This document shows, piece by piece, positions 19,924 to 27,326 of a stretch of 27,326 bases of DNA; the stretch's first letter is position 1, and every line of letters begins with the position of its first letter. This DNA is from a virus. Under the pieces are notes generated by a model. The model had not been told where the DNA came from, did not search any database, and worked only from the letters and a program-made list of their open reading frames with translations. Made by a program: the position numbers and the translations under genes. The stretch lies in the IMG/VR virus record IMGVR_UViG_3300025137_000227, positions 1 through 27,326 of that record; one strand, given 5' to 3'.

Positions 19924-20494
19924 CTTGATTATTTAATTGTTTAAACTCTAAAGATGATTGTATTTTTTCCTTTATAAAATCAGGAAAAGAATCATACAAT
20001 TCTTGCTTAAAATCTGAATAAGTCAGTTCTTGTTTATCGTTAACTTGATCAGGACAATCCATCCCTTTTGGAAGCATGGACACACTTGCAATGTTTGCAT
20101 ATGTTTTGCCATTTCCTAATGTTTTGTGCGTAATAGATAAAAGACAAGGCACACCAAGTAAGTTGGTCACATCAAATGATTGTGCTTCTTTGTCAGTGAA
20201 TGATTTACCACGCCAAGATTCAAGGAATGCACGAAGGGTTGATTTTTCGTGTAGTGATAATGTAAACTCCTTTGCAATGACACGAGGTTGTTCTCCTTTG
20301 TCTTCATTAAATACCAGTAATTCGGTTGGTAATTCCCAAGTAATTCTGACTTTATTGCGTTGTTTAGTTTCCCCATTAAATGTTTCTTCAATCGTACCAA
20401 TATGTATCATTGAATAACATCTTGCTGGATATGAACCAGCTGGTATGATTTCAATTGATGTTTGATTTGATTTGCTTGTTGCTATAATACTCAT
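19904..20494 (-). CDS. probable ssDNA-binding / recombination accessory protein
   Basis: 196 residues. The segments PAGSYPARCYSMIHIGT, NKVRITWELPTE, FTLSLHEKSTLRAFLESWRG, LLGVPCLLSITHK and SVSMLPKGMDCP form the pattern of a common phage protein family of OB-fold-like ssDNA-binding or replication proteins. The acidic C-terminus (LNNQVDEIPF) resembles the acidic tips of SSB proteins that contact partners; the final Phe fits that idea. It lies second in the leftward early operon. The role is inferred from pattern and neighbours, not from a defined motif. Confidence 0.68.
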   Translation of the reverse strand: MSIIATSKSNQTSIEIIPAGSYPARCYSMIHIGTIEETFNGETKQRNKVRITWELPTELLVFNEDKGEQPRVIAKEFTLSLHEKSTLRAFLESWRGKSFTDKEAQSFDVTNLLGVPCLLSITHKTLGNGKTYANIASVSMLPKGMDCPDQVNDKQELTYSDFKQELYDSFPDFIKEKIQSSLEFKQLNNQVDEIPF

Positions 20495-20742
20495 AAATTT
20501 TTGTTTAATAATTCTTGAAATTCAATTAAGATTTTGCGGTTTGCTTCGTTATTTATTAGAGCTTTTTTAGTTAATACTTTAAAATGAGGAAGATAGGAAC
20601 TGCATAATTTCCTTTTTCTTCCTAAAATATCATTGAGAGTGTTGATTGATCCATTTAATTCTTGAATTAAATCAATTCTTTCATTTATTGTAAGCTCTTT
20701 TCTTAATGATGCAGATTGTTTTTGACTTAAAAACTTGTTCAT
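20491..20742 (-). CDS. first gene of leftward operon, small helical protein
   Basis: 83 residues, helical and basic (LRKELTINERIDLIQELNGS, NDILGRKRKL). No clear HTH or other known domain. It is divergent from the first repressor across a 74-bp AT-rich operator region and so would be the first product made when that repressor is lifted, the place often held by cro or antirepressor genes. It overlaps the SSB-like start by 4 bases. Confidence 0.7.
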   Translation of the reverse strand: MNKFLSQKQSASLRKELTINERIDLIQELNGSINTLNDILGRKRKLCSSYLPHFKVLTKKALINNEANRKILIEFQELLNKNL

Positions 20743-20779
20743 TTAAAATTTTGTCTTATCTTGGGACAATATTATATAA

Positions 20780-20802
20780 AATTATATAATAAATATATAA
20801 TT
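20780..20802. promoter_or_regulatory. inverted repeat, likely operator
   Basis: AATTATATA (20780-20788) and its exact reverse complement TATATAATT (20794-20802) are separated by 5 bases in the 74-bp interval between divergent genes, 15 bases before the repressor start. Position and symmetry suit a repressor dimer site. The region is very AT-rich, so part of the symmetry may be chance. Confidence 0.5.
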
Positions 20803-20816
20803 ATTTATTAACAATA

Positions 20817-21449
20817 ATGAACAAAGGTCAAAGATTGCTGCACAATATTATGATTGGCAATAAATTAAGTCAAGTGGAACTTGCTAAAGAATTAGGCATA
20901 AACGCTCCGCAAATATCAGGGTATATGACTGGTGGCACAATCATGAGACAAAAAAAATTCAGAATGTTAGCTGAAAAGTATCCTGAATATGTAAAAAACG
21001 AAGAGTATACCGATGACATAACAAATGCTAACGTTATGAAAATACCATTAGTTAGTAATTACATAAGAGGTGTATCATTTAACAAACACATTGTTGATTC
21101 ATTAATGATTTATGTAAACAAAGAAGATCAAACAGGTGATTATTTTGTTTTTGAAATTAAAAGTGATTCAATGGAAGATTTAAGCAGTATAAGCATAAAC
21201 GATAATGACAAAGTATTAGCTTTAAACATTCCAAATAATAACTGGAACAATTTACATTTTCGAAAATATTTATTTATAATTATAAACGATGGTATTGTAT
21301 GCACACAAATAACCAATATAAATAAAGACACTGGAGACATTACTTGTCACTATTTAAATCCAACATATGATGATCAAATCATTAATTTTAAAGATGTAAA
21401 GCAATTATTTTACGTTAAAAAAGTGATCGAAAGGTCCATATCTTTATAG
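20817..21449 (+). CDS. first phage repressor (HTH plus S24-like domain, catalytic Lys apparently absent)
   Basis: 210 residues. N-terminal HTH about residues 16-45 (LSQVELAKELGINAPQISGY). The C-terminal S24/LexA-like domain shows FEIKSDSMED with Ser118, then NDNDKVLALNI, then the strand FIIINDGIVCTQITNI. In relatives the strand after DGI carries the lysine that activates Ser for self-cleavage (G-I-x-x-K-Q-I); here the equivalent position is Thr163 and there is no Lys from 152 to 169. The protein may therefore dimerise and repress but not be cleaved under SOS. It is divergent from the leftward early operon and precedes attP and the integrase. Its 3' end overlaps the first copy of an 18-bp direct repeat. 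Confidence 0.85.
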   Translation: MNKGQRLLHNIMIGNKLSQVELAKELGINAPQISGYMTGGTIMRQKKFRMLAEKYPEYVKNEEYTDDITNANVMKIPLVSNYIRGVSFNKHIVDSLMIYVNKEDQTGDYFVFEIKSDSMEDLSSISINDNDKVLALNIPNNNWNNLHFRKYLFIIINDGIVCTQITNINKDTGDITCHYLNPTYDDQIINFKDVKQLFYVKKVIERSISL

Positions 21450-21460
21450 AAATGTTATAG
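21443..21460 (+). repeat. 18-bp direct repeat, copy 1
   Basis: TTTATAGAAATGTTATAG, overlapping the repressor stop codon. An identical copy lies at 21707-21724; with one mismatch the match extends 4 bases further left. The pair brackets the putative attP segment. Confidence 0.85.
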
Positions 21461-21502
21461 TAAAGAAGTTAAATGTGTTCGTAAGTAGCTTACTTTCAAT
21501 AG

Positions 21503-21520
21503 TTTGTGAAAATGCACAAA
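21503..21520. repeat. inverted repeat with 6-nt centre, core-site-like
   Basis: TTTGTG (21503-21508) and CACAAA (21515-21520) flank AAAATG. Two short inverted recombinase-binding half-sites around a 6-8 bp overlap is the layout of tyrosine recombinase crossover sites. It abuts the tRNA fragment. Confidence 0.5.
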
Positions 21521-21522
21521 TT

Positions 21523-21542
21523 GCCAACTGAGCTAATCCCCC
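21523..21542 (-). other. 5' fragment of a tRNA gene, alanine-like
   Basis: Read on the - strand, GGGGGATTAGCTCAGTTGGC is the acceptor 5' strand, the TA linker, the D-stem GCTC and the D-loop AGTTGGC of a bacterial tRNA, most like tRNA-Ala of Bacteroidota. The sequence after it does not continue as a tRNA: no matching D-stem 3' strand or T-arm follows. Probably a piece of the host target tRNA carried by the phage. Confidence 0.7.
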
Positions 21543-21578
21543 ATATATTTTACGAAGATAAAATTTACTTGCAATAAT

Positions 21579-21614
21579 CCTTGTGTTTTAGCGGTACTCC
21601 AAGTAAAACAAAGG
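21579..21614. repeat. 11-bp inverted repeat in the attP segment
   Basis: CCTTGTGTTTTA (21579-21590) pairs with TAAAACAAAGG (21604-21614) with one bulged G and a 13-nt loop. No T run follows on the + strand, so it is unlikely to be a terminator for the repressor; it may be a recombination protein site or an RNA structure. Confidence 0.6.
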
Positions 21615-21706
21615 GGTTGAAGTGTTTGTTCATTTTAAGGTATATGCAAATATAAACAATAATCCGACTACTTTAGGCGGCAAATAAGTTGGTGTAGGCG
21701 TGTATT

Positions 21707-21724
21707 TTTATAGAAATGTTATAG
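21707..21724 (+). repeat. 18-bp direct repeat, copy 2
   Basis: Exact second copy of the repeat at 21443-21460, 264 bp away in the same orientation, ending 20 bases before the integrase start. Confidence 0.85.
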
Positions 21725-21744
21725 GATTTAGTTAGATTTGTTTC

Positions 21745-22863
21745 GTGGCATCGTTTAAATTAAATCTAAGAATTAGTGATATAAAGAAAAATCTTGATGT
21801 ACCTATTTATATTATAGCTACTGATGGCAAACCTTACTATATTAATCTAAAAGTGTTTTGTAAAAAGTGGGATTGGGACTTTAAACAGAACAAACCAAAA
21901 GACTTTGAATTTAATGAGTTCTGCCAAAAGAAGATAAAAGCAATACACAATGAATATCTAAAGAATGGATTTAATGTTAAACGATTTAAGCAGATTGTTG
22001 CAAATAATGGTAGCTTTTTAGAGTTTGCTAAACAAATTGAAGCTGATATTAAAAAAACAAGCGTTGGAAATGCAGCAGCATACAAAGTGGCCATAAATAG
22101 TTATTCCAAATTTATGGGAGGTGATATACTATTTTCAGATATTAATCCAGCTAAAATTGCTGAATACAAAGAATGGTGTCGAATCCAAGGCCTTGTTGTT
22201 AATTCTCAAAGTTTTTATCTTAGAACGCTTAAGGCGATATGGAGAAGACATTCAAAAACATCAAACCCATTTGATGGACTTATGCCACAAAGCACTAGAA
22301 CAGAAAAAAGAACCTTGCAAGAACAAGGATTACTTCAATTTTTAAGGTATAAATCAAATAACAAGATTAATCAAGTTGCTGTAGATAAGTTTAATTTAAT
22401 GTTTTATATGTGTGGTGTGAATTATTTAGATTTATTTTACGCTGAAAAAGATCAGTTGCAGGGAGATTACTTTGTGTTTAGTAGAAAGAAGTTAGGGGAA
22501 AGGGGTAATGTAACAAAAATATGGGTTAGTGATCTAGCTATGAAACTACTTAATAAATATAAAGGAAAAAACATGTTGCTCAACTTTTCAGAAGAAGTAA
22601 ATTTTGAGTCAACAAATTACAGGTCTAGTTTAAGGCGGCTGAATAATCGATTAAAAATGATAGGAAATAAACTAGAATTAGGAAGAATAACAACTAACGT
22701 GGCCAGACATTCGTTTGCAACAATTGCACGAAACAAAGGTGTACCATTGGACATTATTAAAATGTTGTTATCACATACAGATAATTCGGTTACTGGAATA
22801 TATTTAGGCGATTACCCAAAAGATATTTTAATTGAAAACATCAAAAAAGCTACTTTGCTATAA
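21745..22863 (+). CDS. int: tyrosine recombinase integrase, Bacteroidota type, Arg I replaced
   Basis: 372 residues from a GTG start. N-terminal arm-binding-like domain (LRISDIKKNLDVPIYIIATDG), SAM-like core-binding domain about 88-175, and catalytic domain from about 190. Box II reads TTNVARHSFATIA with Arg321; the following helix ends LLSHTDNSVTGIYLGDYP with His344 and the nucleophile Tyr353. In box I the usual Arg is replaced: FYMCGVNYLDL has Cys223 where relatives have L-R-G-x-N-x-x-D-L. IntDOT of CTnDOT also lacks Arg I (Ser instead), so this may still be active. Integrates and, with an excisionase, excises the phage. It lies next to the putative attP. Confidence 0.92.
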   Translation: MASFKLNLRISDIKKNLDVPIYIIATDGKPYYINLKVFCKKWDWDFKQNKPKDFEFNEFCQKKIKAIHNEYLKNGFNVKRFKQIVANNGSFLEFAKQIEADIKKTSVGNAAAYKVAINSYSKFMGGDILFSDINPAKIAEYKEWCRIQGLVVNSQSFYLRTLKAIWRRHSKTSNPFDGLMPQSTRTEKRTLQEQGLLQFLRYKSNNKINQVAVDKFNLMFYMCGVNYLDLFYAEKDQLQGDYFVFSRKKLGERGNVTKIWVSDLAMKLLNKYKGKNMLLNFSEEVNFESTNYRSSLRRLNNRLKMIGNKLELGRITTNVARHSFATIARNKGVPLDIIKMLLSHTDNSVTGIYLGDYPKDILIENIKKATLL

Positions 22864-23074
22864 TATCATTCATTTTTGATAAATATAAGGTTTGCAAACC
22901 TATAATATGAAGCATTTCTGTAATGTACTTTTTGCTATAAATGCTTTCTGTGTTTTCAATACAAGTTTCAATAAAATGATTCAATAAATCATTATTAACT
23001 TTAATATAATCAGATGCACTTGCATGATTAAATATTTCCTCAACTATTTCTTTTAATTTTTCTTCTTTACTCAT
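22850..23074 (-). CDS. small acidic helical protein, antisense to the integrase end
   Basis: 74 residues, helical and acidic, beginning MSKEEKLKEIVEEIFNHASA. No recognised domain. Its last 14 bases overlap the integrase 3' end on the other strand, so transcription of this gene runs antisense into int. It is divergent from the second repressor with 96 bp between the starts. The arrangement suggests a gene released when that repressor is removed, possibly a Cro-like or antirepressor function, but nothing in the sequence proves it. Confidence 0.6.
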   Translation of the reverse strand: MSKEEKLKEIVEEIFNHASASDYIKVNNDLLNHFIETCIENTESIYSKKYITEMLHIIGLQTLYLSKMNDIIAK

Positions 23075-23102
23075 ATTTAATTTTTAATTTATATTGCGTT
23101 TT

Positions 23103-23116
23103 AAATAATATTATTT
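23103..23116. promoter_or_regulatory. 14-bp perfect palindrome between divergent genes
   Basis: AAATAATATTATTT is its own reverse complement and lies between the 74-residue gene and the second repressor. Its core AATAATATT is repeated at the start of the repressor gene. Candidate operator. Confidence 0.5.
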
Positions 23117-23158
23117 GACAAATAAACGATAAAATTCAAACATTTAAAAAACTTTTTT

Positions 23159-23218
23159 AAAAATAATATAATGAAAAATAATATTAAGAAAAATAATATT
23201 AAGAAAAATAATATTAAG
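23159..23218 (+). repeat. 15-bp tandem repeat across the start codon of the second repressor
   Basis: AAAAATAATATTAAG occurs three times without change (23174-23188, 23189-23203, 23204-23218) and a fourth, two-mismatch copy at 23159-23173 ends in the ATG itself. The repeats encode three N-N-I-K-K-like units at the protein N-terminus. Confidence 0.92.
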
Positions 23219-23842
23219 TCTAGAATATTAAAGATTGCAGAATACAAAGGGATTAAAAAAGAAAATTTTTTAAAATTAAATGATTTATCAGCATCTAATT
23301 TTAGGGGAAATGCTTTTAATATGTCGTTAAGATCAGATTTTATTGATAAAATTTTATCAAAATACAAAGACATAAATGCTAGGTGGTTGTTAACTGGTGA
23401 AGGCAACATGGTATATCCTGAATTTAATAAAGAAAATTTAATACCTTTATATGATGGAGTTTTTCAAGCTAACAAAGAAGGAGTTGGTTTTATTAATGTA
23501 GCTAAATTGTTTCAAAAATCGTTTGGTTTTTTACGCATAACAAACGACTCAATGGCTCCAGATTACACCATTGGAAGTTTAGTGTCAATAGGTCATAAAA
23601 TTGATGATATTGATTTAATTGTTTCAGGGCAAGATTATGTTATTGAAACAAAAGAATTTAGAATTTTAAAAAGGCTTTATGTAAATGACAATAATGATTA
23701 CATTGATTGCATAAGTTTAAATGATACAGTTATTAAAACAAGCACGAAATTAAAATATCCATTGTTTACCATACCAAAGTCTAAAATAATAAATATATAT
23801 TCAGTGAATGGTTTACTTAAATTTTATAACATAAGCATTTAA
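23171..23842 (+). CDS. second phage repressor (HTH plus intact S24 domain)
   Basis: 223 residues. The first 16 residues are a lysine- and asparagine-rich repeat; the DNA-binding part follows (RILKIAEYKGIKKENFLKLN) with the segment KDINARWLLTGEGNM, a hallmark of Bacteroidota CI-like repressors. The S24 domain has LRITNDSMAPDYTIGSLVSI with Ser127 and ETKEFRILKRLY with Lys167, both expected catalytic residues. It should be able to self-cleave when RecA is active. It faces the 74-residue gene across an AT-rich interval and converges on the rightmost early operon with only 6 bases between the stops. Confidence 0.88.
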   Translation: MKNNIKKNNIKKNNIKSRILKIAEYKGIKKENFLKLNDLSASNFRGNAFNMSLRSDFIDKILSKYKDINARWLLTGEGNMVYPEFNKENLIPLYDGVFQANKEGVGFINVAKLFQKSFGFLRITNDSMAPDYTIGSLVSIGHKIDDIDLIVSGQDYVIETKEFRILKRLYVNDNNDYIDCISLNDTVIKTSTKLKYPLFTIPKSKIINIYSVNGLLKFYNISI

Positions 23843-23848
23843 TTATGT

Positions 23849-24115
23849 TTATCTCAAATATGATCCGTTAATTTTTGCTTTATATTTAAGTAAGCTATTA
23901 AGCTCGTATTTTATAGGTGAGTTTATAGAACTTCCTTTTTCATAGTTAAGCTCGTTTTTTAGCCTTAATGATTTTAATTTATCTCTGCCACAATTTAACA
24001 TTTTTAAAGTCTGTTGAGTGGTTAACATGACACATGAATCTAATAGCTCATTTAAAACTGCCTTTGCAGCTTCTTGAGCTGCGTATCTCACCAAATTGTT
24101 GTCTCGTTCATTCAT
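23849..24115 (-). CDS. excisionase-like HTH protein
   Basis: 88 residues. MLTTQQTLKMLNCGRDKLKSL is a winged-helix/MerR-like helix-turn-helix, followed by KYELNSLLKYKA, the usual ending of HTH_17-like and excisionase proteins. It is the last gene of the right early operon and could be the directionality factor for the integrase or a transcription regulator. It overlaps the upstream gene by 4 bases. Confidence 0.75.
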   Translation of the reverse strand: MNERDNNLVRYAAQEAAKAVLNELLDSCVMLTTQQTLKMLNCGRDKLKSLRLKNELNYEKGSSINSPIKYELNSLLKYKAKINGSYLR

Positions 24116-24417
24116 AATTCTTTAATTTTTTCATTAATGTTAATTTTATTTTGTAAATAATTAAGCTGATAATTAAGCGTTTTTATGCGTTCATTTAAAT
24201 CAGCAAATTCAGTAAAATATTCATTATTTTGTTGCTCTAAATAACAAGCATAATGAACCAAATTATTTAGCTTATCAAGTTTATTTTGCTTATCTTTAGG
24301 TATTTCAATAGAATGTGTATTAATGTTCCCAATTTTCATACCAGCTTGACGTTGCATTGCTAAATCTATTGAGCTAATTATTGATTTTGCTTCTTTTATT
24401 ATCTTTCTGTGGTCCAT
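24112..24417 (-). CDS. coiled-coil protein, unknown
   Basis: 101 residues, almost entirely helical. The C-terminal half (FTEFADLNERIKTLNYQLNY then LQNKININEKI) has heptad-like spacing of leucines, suggesting a coiled coil and dimer formation. No other domain is seen. It is translated between the adenine methyltransferase (2-base gap) and the HTH protein. Confidence 0.7.
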   Translation of the reverse strand: MDHRKIIKEAKSIISSIDLAMQRQAGMKIGNINTHSIEIPKDKQNKLDKLNNLVHYACYLEQQNNEYFTEFADLNERIKTLNYQLNYLQNKININEKIKEL

Positions 24418-24419
24418 AA

Positions 24420-25067
24420 TTAAAACAATACTTGTTGAAGTTGATGGTTGTGCAGTCTTTTAATGGCTGCATCATAATATTCTTTGTCTAATTCACAAGC
24501 AGTAAGGTCAAACCCAAGATTATGGCAAGCAATGGCAATTGAGCCACTACCTAAATGTGTATCAAGTACCATATCACCTTCCTTCGCATAATTCATTAAA
24601 AGCCATTCGTATAATTTAATAGGTTTTTCTGTTGGGTGTATTCTTTCTTGTTTTTCTTTCATATTTTGTTGCAAAAATCCGTGCCATCTCCATTCGAACT
24701 TTCTAACCGACGTTTTAAATGATGTCCAAGCTAATTCACAATCAGCATAATAATTTTCTCCATTTTTTTTATCCCAAACAATAAAACAAGAAGTGGCCTT
24801 TAAATAATCTAAAAAATAATTTCCCCCCCAAATAATAAGGTTTTTGCTAACTCTTTCTAATTCATTAAAATATTCTTTTGTAGGTATTTCGTTGTCCCAA
24901 TCCCCAACGTGATAATCTTTTTGTTTTATGTGTTTATTTTTCCCAGTATCTGCTCTTTTTAAATTTGCGTTAATCCCATAAGGAGGATCAACAATAGCAA
25001 GGTCAAAATGATTATCTTCATACCTTGCCATTAAGTCAATATTATCTTCGTTTGTAATATGTATCAA
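24420..25067 (-). CDS. N6-adenine (or N4-cytosine) DNA methyltransferase
   Basis: 215 residues. Motif IV DPPYG lies near residue 28 (LAIVDPPYGINA) ahead of motif I near 168 (DMVLDTHLGSGSIAIAC), the beta-class order. HPTEKPIKLYEWLL between them is motif X-like and common in phage enzymes; CFIVWDKK is another typical strand. It transfers a methyl group from S-adenosylmethionine to DNA. No restriction gene accompanies it. It overlaps the helicase gene by ATGA and is expressed early, consistent with protection of replicating DNA. Confidence 0.9.
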   Translation of the reverse strand: MIHITNEDNIDLMARYEDNHFDLAIVDPPYGINANLKRADTGKNKHIKQKDYHVGDWDNEIPTKEYFNELERVSKNLIIWGGNYFLDYLKATSCFIVWDKKNGENYYADCELAWTSFKTSVRKFEWRWHGFLQQNMKEKQERIHPTEKPIKLYEWLLMNYAKEGDMVLDTHLGSGSIAIACHNLGFDLTACELDKEYYDAAIKRLHNHQLQQVLF

Positions 25068-25978
25068 AATGGGGTTGATGTCGTTTGATAATTAGGTATT
25101 AATGGATCAATTACTTGTTCTTCTTTTGCATAAGCATAATGCTTTTTGTTAGTTATCACATCAAATTCATAAAATCTTTGGGTTGCCCAATCAATGTTTA
25201 AAATAGCTTCACCAATTTGTCCATAATGTTTAGGCTTTACTTTTTCAATAGTGATGTTGTATGGCTGGTTATTTTCTTTAGAATGTTTATGTACGACAAG
25301 AATATTACGACCATTATTGTTCCATTCAGAACCGCCCATTAAATCATAAACACTAGGCTTTTTTACTGATCCTTCCTTAATTTGCTTTGGATCAGGATTT
25401 TTTGGATGTATAACGATAAATGAATGCATCATGTTAGATTCCATAAATCGGTTTCTAAATGATAATATTTTTCTTAAATAATCAGGCTTTGTAGGTTCTC
25501 CTTTGTGATTCATGTAGTTCCAAGAATCTATAACTGCTGAATTACATTTAGCTTCTTTTGCGTAATTCCAAAACGCTTCAGGGTCTATGTGTTTAGATGC
25601 TGAAATAAATTTAAACTTATCAAAAAAATAACTTGAATGCTTTGAAATTTCCCTTTCAGTTATAGTGTTTTTATAACCTTTTGCAAACGTTTTACCAGTA
25701 ATTTTTTGTATTAAATTAGAAATTACTTCAATGTCTGATCCATCATCAGGCATATACAAACAATGCTTCCAACCCTCGTTCATTGTCAAACCAATAATTA
25801 TTTCTTTTAAAAATAAAGATTTGCCAAAAAATGGATAACCAGTAATGTCTGTGCATCCACCCTTAACAAAGCTTAATAATTCATCAAAAGGTTTTAGTCC
25901 TATTTTACTACCTTTAGGAATACCATGCTTATGAAGGTGATATAATTCCTCTAATATGTCTCCATTAGACTTAATCAT
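25064..25978 (-). CDS. DnaB/Twinkle-like replicative helicase ATPase
   Basis: 304 residues. Walker A is GYPFFGKSLF at about residue 47, Walker B is SAVIDSWNYM near 145, followed by FIVIHPKNP and the family segment DLMGGSEWNNNGRNILVVHKH, which ends in the arginine-finger region. It lacks an N-terminal primase or DnaB N-domain, so it is a single RecA-fold motor. Ring helicases of this type unwind phage DNA at the fork. It is coupled by ATGA to the initiator upstream and the methyltransferase downstream. Confidence 0.85.
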   Translation of the reverse strand: MIKSNGDILEELYHLHKHGIPKGSKIGLKPFDELLSFVKGGCTDITGYPFFGKSLFLKEIIIGLTMNEGWKHCLYMPDDGSDIEVISNLIQKITGKTFAKGYKNTITEREISKHSSYFFDKFKFISASKHIDPEAFWNYAKEAKCNSAVIDSWNYMNHKGEPTKPDYLRKILSFRNRFMESNMMHSFIVIHPKNPDPKQIKEGSVKKPSVYDLMGGSEWNNNGRNILVVHKHSKENNQPYNITIEKVKPKHYGQIGEAILNIDWATQRFYEFDVITNKKHYAYAKEEQVIDPLIPNYQTTSTPF

Positions 25979-26664
25979 ATTATTTTAGTCTTTATATAAA
26001 ATTGATTCATGTTTACGAATCGATCCAGTTTATCCTGGCGAGACATAAATTCAAGCGTTATATATTTAAAATTGCTATCTATATGATGCTGATCTTTAGA
26101 TGCATTATGCATGGCCAATAAAATATCCTCTTTTGTATAGCCTTCTTTTAATCTAGCTTGTAATTGCTTTTTTGCTTTTGTTCCTAAAACTTTTGACTTT
26201 TTACCAAAAATTGAATTAAACTGACTGATGAGTTTTTGCTCATCAATGGGTATTACTTTCTCTTTCTCTTTCTCTTTCTCTTTCTCTTTGCCTATTGAGT
26301 TGGGTTTTGTTTGGGTTTGTGTTTGGGTTTCTGTTTGGGTTTTTGGTCTGCCTCCTTTTTTACCATTCTCACGATTCTTATTAACCATTAACAATCTATT
26401 GTCACAACTATTAATAATTAGTTTATTAGATTCAATGCTGATTAGTTTTAATTCTTTTAATCTATTTAATATCGAATTAATTTCATCAGTGCTGCTATTC
26501 CATTTGCGTACCCATACATTAATATTAATATCAACGTTACCATTGTTGAGCATATACGTGTCAATTAATTCACGATATGCACCACGTTCAGATAATGTTA
26601 AATCAAATACGGCATCACTTGTTTGCCAGTCTTTAGGGTAAAATGTATATCCCAATTTAGACAT
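25975..26664 (-). CDS. replication initiator / replisome organiser with DUF1376-like N-domain and phage C-terminus
   Basis: 229 residues. The N-terminal winged-helix-like part (GYTFYPKDWQTSDAVFDLTL followed by SERGAYRELIDTYML) matches DUF1376-type initiators. A GKKGGRPK linker leads into a low-complexity stretch of T-Q and K-E repeats (about 110-138). The C-terminal part, FNSIFGKKSKVLGTKAKKQL and RLKEGYTKEDILLAMHNASK then KYITLEFMSRQDKLDRFVN, matches the conserved phage C-terminal domain found in DnaD-like replisome organisers. It probably loads the adjacent helicase. The K-E linker is encoded by a hexanucleotide repeat. Confidence 0.83.
   Translation of the reverse strand: MSKLGYTFYPKDWQTSDAVFDLTLSERGAYRELIDTYMLNNGNVDININVWVRKWNSSTDEINSILNRLKELKLISIESNKLIINSCDNRLLMVNKNRENGKKGGRPKTQTETQTQTQTKPNSIGKEKEKEKEKEKVIPIDEQKLISQFNSIFGKKSKVLGTKAKKQLQARLKEGYTKEDILLAMHNASKDQHHIDSNFKYITLEFMSRQDKLDRFVNMNQFYIKTKII
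26257..26345. repeat. hexanucleotide and G-rich low-complexity tract in the initiator gene
   Basis: A TCTCTT unit recurs about five times at 26257-26289, encoding alternating K-E on the - strand. Next to it (about 26298-26345) TTTGGG units spaced irregularly encode T-Q. Copy changes by whole units keep the frame and alter only linker length. Confidence 0.85.
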
Positions 26665-27038
26665 TACCTACAAGCTTTGAATTGATTAATAATTAAATTG
26701 TAATCCATCTCGCTTACGTGATCTTTAACAATCTCTTTCAATGTGTGTATAGCAGAATAGCGTTTTGTAGGGAATAATGATTCTTCAGCTATCTGATACA
26801 ATGATTTGCCATTTCTTTGACCAACGATGTTAATCTTGCCCTCCATGTATAAGTCACTGCATCTCTTTTGAGTATTGTTTACATTGTTGTTTAAATTAGA
26901 TACATTGTTTGATATTTCTTCGTATGTGAAAGATTCATTGTGATAATCTTTTAAATACTTTAAAATAAAAAATTTAGTTGATCTTCTTCTTTGCGTGTTG
27001 CTTTCATTTACAAAAGCCTTTAAACTTGATTTTGTCAT
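26664..27038 (-). CDS. winged-helix regulatory protein, first gene of the right early operon
   Basis: 124 residues from the ATG at 27038. A longer frame reaches 27080 but its added 14 residues (MISHSCWWAFLLNI) are coded by the attenuator hairpin and are unlikely to be translated. The product has STKFFILKYLKDYHNESFTY and EEISNNVSNLNNNVNNTQKR, a winged-helix core, then LYMEGKINIVGQRNGKSLYQ as the wing. Probably an early regulator or a replication accessory factor. The stop overlaps the initiator start (TAATG). Confidence 0.78.
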   Translation of the reverse strand: MTKSSLKAFVNESNTQRRRSTKFFILKYLKDYHNESFTYEEISNNVSNLNNNVNNTQKRCSDLYMEGKINIVGQRNGKSLYQIAEESLFPTKRYSAIHTLKEIVKDHVSEMDYNLIINQFKACR

Positions 27039-27048
27039 AATATTTAAT

Positions 27049-27114
27049 AAAAAAGCCCACCAGCAAGAGTGTGATATCAATTAAACTATACTAAAGATTA
27101 CTTGCTGGGAGCTT
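27049..27114 (-). terminator. attenuator-like hairpin in the leader of the right early operon
   Basis: On the - strand, CCAGCAAG (27108-27101 reversed arm) pairs with CTTGCTGG (27067-27060) and outer AAGC/GCTT arms extend it across a small internal loop; a run of six U follows. It lies between the predicted promoter and the first start codon, 11-15 bases before the ATG. A terminator here would stop most early transcripts unless antitermination occurs. Confidence 0.62.
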
Positions 27115-27148
27115 AATGTTTTTTATGTAAGCTAATAATATCACTTTG

Positions 27149-27181
27149 CAAACATATAACAAATAATAAATAAAATGCAAA
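27149..27181 (-). promoter_or_regulatory. Bacteroidota-type promoter for the right early operon
   Basis: On the - strand a TTTG (27181-27178) is followed 21 bases later by TATGTTTG (27156-27149), matching the Bacteroidota -33/-7 consensus TTTG and TAnnTTTG. Transcription would begin near 27143 and give a leader of about 100 nt holding the attenuator-like hairpin. It is the clearest promoter in the window. Confidence 0.65.
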
Positions 27182-27326
27182 CAATTAGCTAATTAATATG
27201 ATTTATATGTTTACTTTAATGTAATTTTTAGCAATATTAATTAATATATTATATAATAATTATATATTTGTGTTAGGGATAGGGGGGTTTTAAATCCACA
27301 TCTATTTGTACTACATAAATATATAA

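Follow-up and report, generated by a model that had tools for sequence, protein, structure and literature searches.

The stretch of DNA analysed here (the window, 27,326 nucleotides) comes from a marine bacterial virus. An attachment site had been proposed in it between a repressor gene and an integrase gene, and two such genes do flank the site: an HTH regulator on one side and a tyrosine integrase on the other. The features of this part of the window, with coordinates counted from its first nucleotide, are as follows.

20817..21449, plus strand: gene of the HTH transcriptional regulator, with an HTH_3 match slightly under the curated cut-off (Pfam) and a PHROG match to transcriptional regulator.

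21439..21460, plus strand: left direct repeat of 22 bp, exact over the 18 bp 21443-21460; a possible arm-type site of the integrase.

21503..21520, no strand: inverted repeat TTTGTG-AAAATG-CACAAA, at chance level.

21523..21542, minus strand: 5' fragment (nt 1-20) of tRNA-Ala(GGC), an exact match to the starts of host genes with a sharp end at nt 20; the proposed core of the phage attachment site (attP).

21553..21560, minus strand: promoter-like box TATCTTCG (TAnnTTYG), which stops 10 nt short of tRNA nt 1; a candidate phage-borne promoter of the tRNA.

21703..21724, plus strand: right direct repeat of 22 bp, exact over the 18 bp 21707-21724; a possible arm-type site of the integrase or else an operator immediately preceding int.

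21745..22863, plus strand: gene of the tyrosine integrase, 372 aa, GTG start, with matches to Pfam PF17293, PF13102 and PF00589 and to PHROG integrase.

All three Pfam matches of the integrase (arm-binding, SAM-like and catalytic domain types) exceed the curated cut-offs, which makes it a tyrosine integrase of the Bacteroidetes type. In the alignment, its residue Cys223 occupies the position of the first catalytic Arg in most relatives. The tRNA fragment lies upstream of the integrase gene with a gap of 202 bp, so that an integrase gene is close by in the sense used by Islander. Downstream of the integrase is a second repressor-like gene (23171-23842) of the S24 type, with a weak Pfam match and a PHROG match to transcriptional repressor; together with the HTH regulator it gives the lysogeny module two regulators. 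The small gene that comes after it (23849-24115) is without a family match and, by its look, may encode an excisionase.

The 18-bp direct repeats that had been noted on either side of the tRNA fragment are an exact pair, extendable to 22 bp with one mismatch. They are beyond chance, as none of 2,000 shuffles gave a repeat longer than 14 bp. The fragment sits between the two copies, and the left copy overlaps the final bases of the HTH regulator gene. The inverted repeat of the original prediction is present as well, but the structural role given to it did not survive: inverted repeats with 6-bp arms were observed twice against 1.3 expected, and we dropped this one as a structural element.

On the minus strand, the fragment reads GGGGGATTAGCTCAGTTGGC. 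Its 19-mer GGGGATTAGCTCAGTTGGC has a single match in the window even when 3 mismatches are allowed, whereas 0 are expected from 100 shuffles. The 20-mer is present in 22 of 301 Flavobacteriaceae genomes, and in every one of the 22 it opens a full tRNA-Ala(GGC) gene, which identifies the fragment in the window as nt 1-20 of tRNA-Ala. The reversed control pattern of the 20-mer occurred in none of the 301 genomes. Hence, the original prediction was right both about the 20-nt minus-strand match to the start of a tRNA-Ala gene, which is exact, and about its being the 5' rather than the 3' end of the tRNA, because the match begins at nt 1. Near a full tRNA-Ala(GGC) gene, an orphan copy of the 20-mer was found in two of the 22 matching genomes. 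The bare 19-mer matched 28 IMG/VR contigs, nearly all of them at full tRNA genes, and the fragment taken together with its phage-side flank had no match in IMG/VR.

The fragment comprises the 5' strands of the acceptor stem and the D-stem, together with the greater part of the D-loop. It contains one end of the tRNA gene (nt 1), as does a tDNA fragment in Islander. Past nt 20 no similarity to tRNA-Ala is left (local score of 5 against a shuffle mean of 6.2). To judge by the sequence, such a change from 20/20 identity to none looks like a recombination boundary and not like decay. When the attachment region was compared with tRNA-Ala and with any tRNA in a set of 279 sequences, no piece stood out as a 3' tRNA core. 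We counted this lack of a detectable 3' piece able to act as a core in favour of the 5' fragment as the core.

Several other loci carry interrupted or duplicated tRNA genes. In genome G264 (L250:5664-6053), a small GIY-YIG-like ORF, whose frame has its stop codon inside the tRNA when the sequence is read, lies between an orphan 5' fragment of tRNA-Ala(GGC) that ends in the D-loop and an intact tRNA-Ala 314 bp away. We rejected this orphan as an integration footprint, since the insert encodes the GIY-YIG-like protein and no integrase. In genome G289 (L251:8881-9038), a stretch of 83 bp is duplicated in tandem, so that the 5' end of tRNA-Ala(GGC) occurs a second time ahead of the intact gene. 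A hairpin-like insert, about 40 nt long, splits the D-loop of a tRNA-Phe gene (L104:5710-5830) that has an integrase beside it. A phage contig (L240:4590-4705) was rejected as a carrier of an orphan fragment, as it holds a tRNA-Ala-like gene in which an AT-rich insert breaks the sequence near the anticodon arm.

The fragment is oriented with its 5' end towards the flank on the side of the integrase, as the class of 5' fragments requires, and the predicted promoter box TATCTTCG lies 10 nt away in the same flank. The TAnnTTYG box is what we take to be the Bacteroidetes-type -7 element, as established for this group of bacteria. The probability of finding the box by chance is 2.2% within 30 nt and 3.5% within 45 nt, and of the 24 matching host fragments, 14 are preceded by a looser form of it.

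We therefore propose that 21439-21744 is the attachment region of the phage, with the 5' end of the host's tRNA-Ala(GGC) as its core, and that integration is of the 5' type and rebuilds the tRNA under a phage-borne promoter. On balance, we favour this reading, with considerable reserve. Inside the 20-bp block of identity, the integrase would exchange strands between the phage core and its counterpart in the host tRNA-Ala gene. If this block is the whole core, the crossover would lie no further into the tRNA than the D-loop, either there or at a point upstream. In the prophage, the phage DNA from the side of the integrase (TATCTTCG and tRNA nt 1-20) would be joined to nt 21-75 of the host tRNA to give an intact tRNA-Ala, which the phage-borne promoter would then drive, and the host's own promoter and 5' fragment would have moved to the far end of the prophage. 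At one junction, the phage left arm GGCAATTTGTGCATTTTCACAAA (minus strand) would meet the host DNA upstream of tRNA-Ala, and at the other junction the phage sequence TATCTTCGTAAAATATAT would adjoin the intact tRNA-Ala. The 22-bp direct repeats would serve as arm-type sites for the N-terminal domain of the integrase. We infer the working of the fragment as a core, the point of crossover and the function of the promoter.

The original prediction had offered two explanations of a 5' fragment, an unusual target at the D-arm end of the tRNA and a leftover of an older exchange, and we consider these to be the right pair. According to the second, some other part of 21450-21744 is the working core, and the 5' piece is either left over from a previous exchange or an inverted site with an accessory role. 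Two flavobacterial relatives make this a real rival, as they carry such pieces and yet use the 3' half of the tRNA. In genome G162 (L168), integration took place at the 3' half of tRNA-Met, the orphan 3' half being about 15 kb off, and in Tenacibaculum haliotis (G001, L140) at the 3' half of tRNA-Asn, with the orphan about 12 kb off. Between the tRNA and the integrase, L168 has an inverted 5' half of tRNA-Met, exact over 34 nt (in the stretch L168:2780-2946, minus strand), and L140 has an inverted and diverged 5' half of tRNA-Asn (in the stretch L140:5346-5515, plus strand). Like the fragment in the window, these pieces lie upstream of the integrase and on the strand opposite to it, at 111-194 bp in L168 and L140 and here between a 3'-type junction and the integrase. 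Hence, a 5' tRNA piece near an integrase is not always the core. However, the 5' piece in both loci is inverted with respect to a 3' core of the same tRNA, and that core is plain to see, whereas the window is without a 3' piece of tRNA-Ala and nothing stands out in it from the 279-sequence set either, which sets it apart from L168 and L140. Furthermore, the fragment in the window is free of decay. A core that matches no tRNA would fit this alternative too. We regard a secondary or relic fragment as rather unlikely, if a serious alternative to a working 5' core.

It is also conceivable that the fragment is what is left of a longer 5' half that extended to the anticodon loop, that the part after nt 20 was deleted or replaced, and that integration, if it still takes place, uses the shortened core. 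The pieces in L113 (nt 1-40; described below) and L168 (nt 1-34) do stop at the anticodon loop, but nt 21-60 have left no trace in the DNA beyond the fragment in the window, which makes this history very improbable. Least credible of all is that the fragment is an RNA or DNA signal and not a core, such as a stretch of the integrase leader antisense to tRNA-Ala: read in the direction in which the integrase is transcribed, the fragment is indeed antisense to tRNA-Ala, and the L168 piece is perfectly antisense, over 34 nt, to the tRNA-Met next to it, but no RNA family matches the region, and tRNA pieces beside tyrosine integrases are overwhelmingly attachment sites, both in Islander (PMC4383910) and among the related integrases analysed here.

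A lysogen, a host or a related integrated phage was not found in the collections searched (IMG/VR, the genome-collection scan and the sampled genomes), and the same three sources gave no full-length relative of the integrase above about 33% identity among the matches listed. The relatives obtained from the alignment and the genome searches have about 22-35% identity among the matches listed, closer ones may well exist beyond these, and the placement of the integrase in the tree is uncertain (end branch of 2.42, no starred group). A search of IMG/VR with the integrase as a single protein gave no confirmed relative, a terminase search of 400 Flavobacteriaceae genomes gave no prophage, and no integrase was found within about 1.5 kb on each side of the 22 host tRNA-Ala genes. 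Because neither a lysogen, nor a host, nor a close integrase relative was found among the matches listed, we counted the case for the 5' mode as weaker.

The structural genes of the phage do have close relatives, the terminase being as much as 95% identical across the whole query. The DNA similarity to these relatives ends at 20488, and the remainder (20488-27326) is the block of repressor, integrase and replication genes. None of 160 related loci has an integrase; many of them are short fragments, so this absence is in part a matter of coverage. Loci that extend past the equivalent point (e.g. L294 and L379) have primase, helicase and other replication genes in place of the lysogeny block, and no relative of the phage's own primase/helicase-like gene was found in IMG/VR. 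Taken together, the stop at 20488 and the count of 0/160 give the lysogeny block the appearance of an acquired module. It looks like a gain by one member of the group, with the sampled relatives being without it, and the phage looks like a temperate mosaic, the one member of its group so far seen to have an integrase.

Genes of tRNA are among the commonest targets of integration and are used by about 30-50% of integrative islands (PMC4383910). The crossover subsites described so far lie in the anticodon loop or the T-arm region, and the element nearly always carries the 3' side (PMC4383910). If our reading of the window is correct, tRNA genes would have an additional crossover subsite, a D-loop core that the element carries along with the 5' end, and transcription of a host tRNA would be under prophage DNA for as long as the phage is integrated. 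We put forward only tentatively, as a possibility somewhat short of probable, the full combination of a D-loop crossover in tRNA-Ala as a further subsite in addition to the anticodon loop, the T loop and the T/acceptor junction, capture of the front of the gene with a phage promoter and transcription of the lysogen's tRNA-Ala from phage DNA.

The 5' mode of integration as such is already known, but rare, in agreement with the original prediction, which had described 5' fragments as a minority. Of the 3,919 islands in Islander, 159 have a 5' fragment and 3,760 a 3' fragment, and every island is assigned to one of two crossovers, 2,083 to the anticodon and 1,836 to the T-arm region (PMC4383910). 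Of 68 related integrases that have a full tRNA no more than 700 bp upstream, 64 face the 3' end of the tRNA and 4 the 5' end, namely those of L113, L147 and L141 and one of the two in L040. In L040 (2326-5164), a tRNA-Ser lies between two divergent tyrosine integrases, one towards its 3' end and one towards its 5' end, and the 5'-side integrase is closely related to that of L113. We left out L089 and L046, which have 5' pieces on the integrase's own strand, as precedents, since their far ends are ambiguous.

The elements with a 5' fragment in Islander resemble the window in having a tDNA fragment that starts from nt 1, lies beside a tyrosine integrase and is placed to rebuild the tRNA (PMC4383910). 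They differ in the crossover, which is in the anticodon loop or the T-arm region (PMC4383910), whereas the identity in the window ends at nt 20, in the D-loop; if the crossover is placed by this end, it falls in neither of the two subsites. In Caldiarchaeum, an insertion at tRNA-Thr(GGU) left a 5' fragment of nt 1-27 (PMC3293823). Here, too, the 5' fragment is upstream of an intact tRNA, a recombinase-coding insert lies between them and the break is near the D-arm, but the element is archaeal, 1.8 kb long and of a proposed pNOB8 type, and its break around nt 25-27 is outside the D-loop (PMC3293823).

The closest parallel to the proposed 5' integration is L113 of Dysgonomonas sp. Marseille-P4361, in which both ends can be read. 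Its orphan copy, made up of 58 bp of upstream DNA and nt 1-40 of tRNA-Ser(GGA), is followed by the integrase interval and then by the same 98 bp running into the intact tRNA-Ser, with a repeat period of 6,006 bp. It follows from this 98-bp duplication that the element brings along a promoter region as well as the tRNA's 5' half, so that, by its sequence, an element can carry the two together. The 5' end of the intact tRNA-Ser faces the integrase, as expected for the window, and L040, L147 and L141 are oriented alike. Thus, L113 and the window share the same broad integrase family, a rebuilt tRNA with its 5' end towards the integrase and a promoter region that travels, or in the window would travel, with the 5' part of the tRNA. 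In contrast, the L113 integrase is only about 27% identical, and its fragment has 40 nt and reaches the anticodon loop, whereas that of the window has 20 nt, a point against the proposed 5' mode in the window; the L113 element is 6 kb long and need not be a phage.
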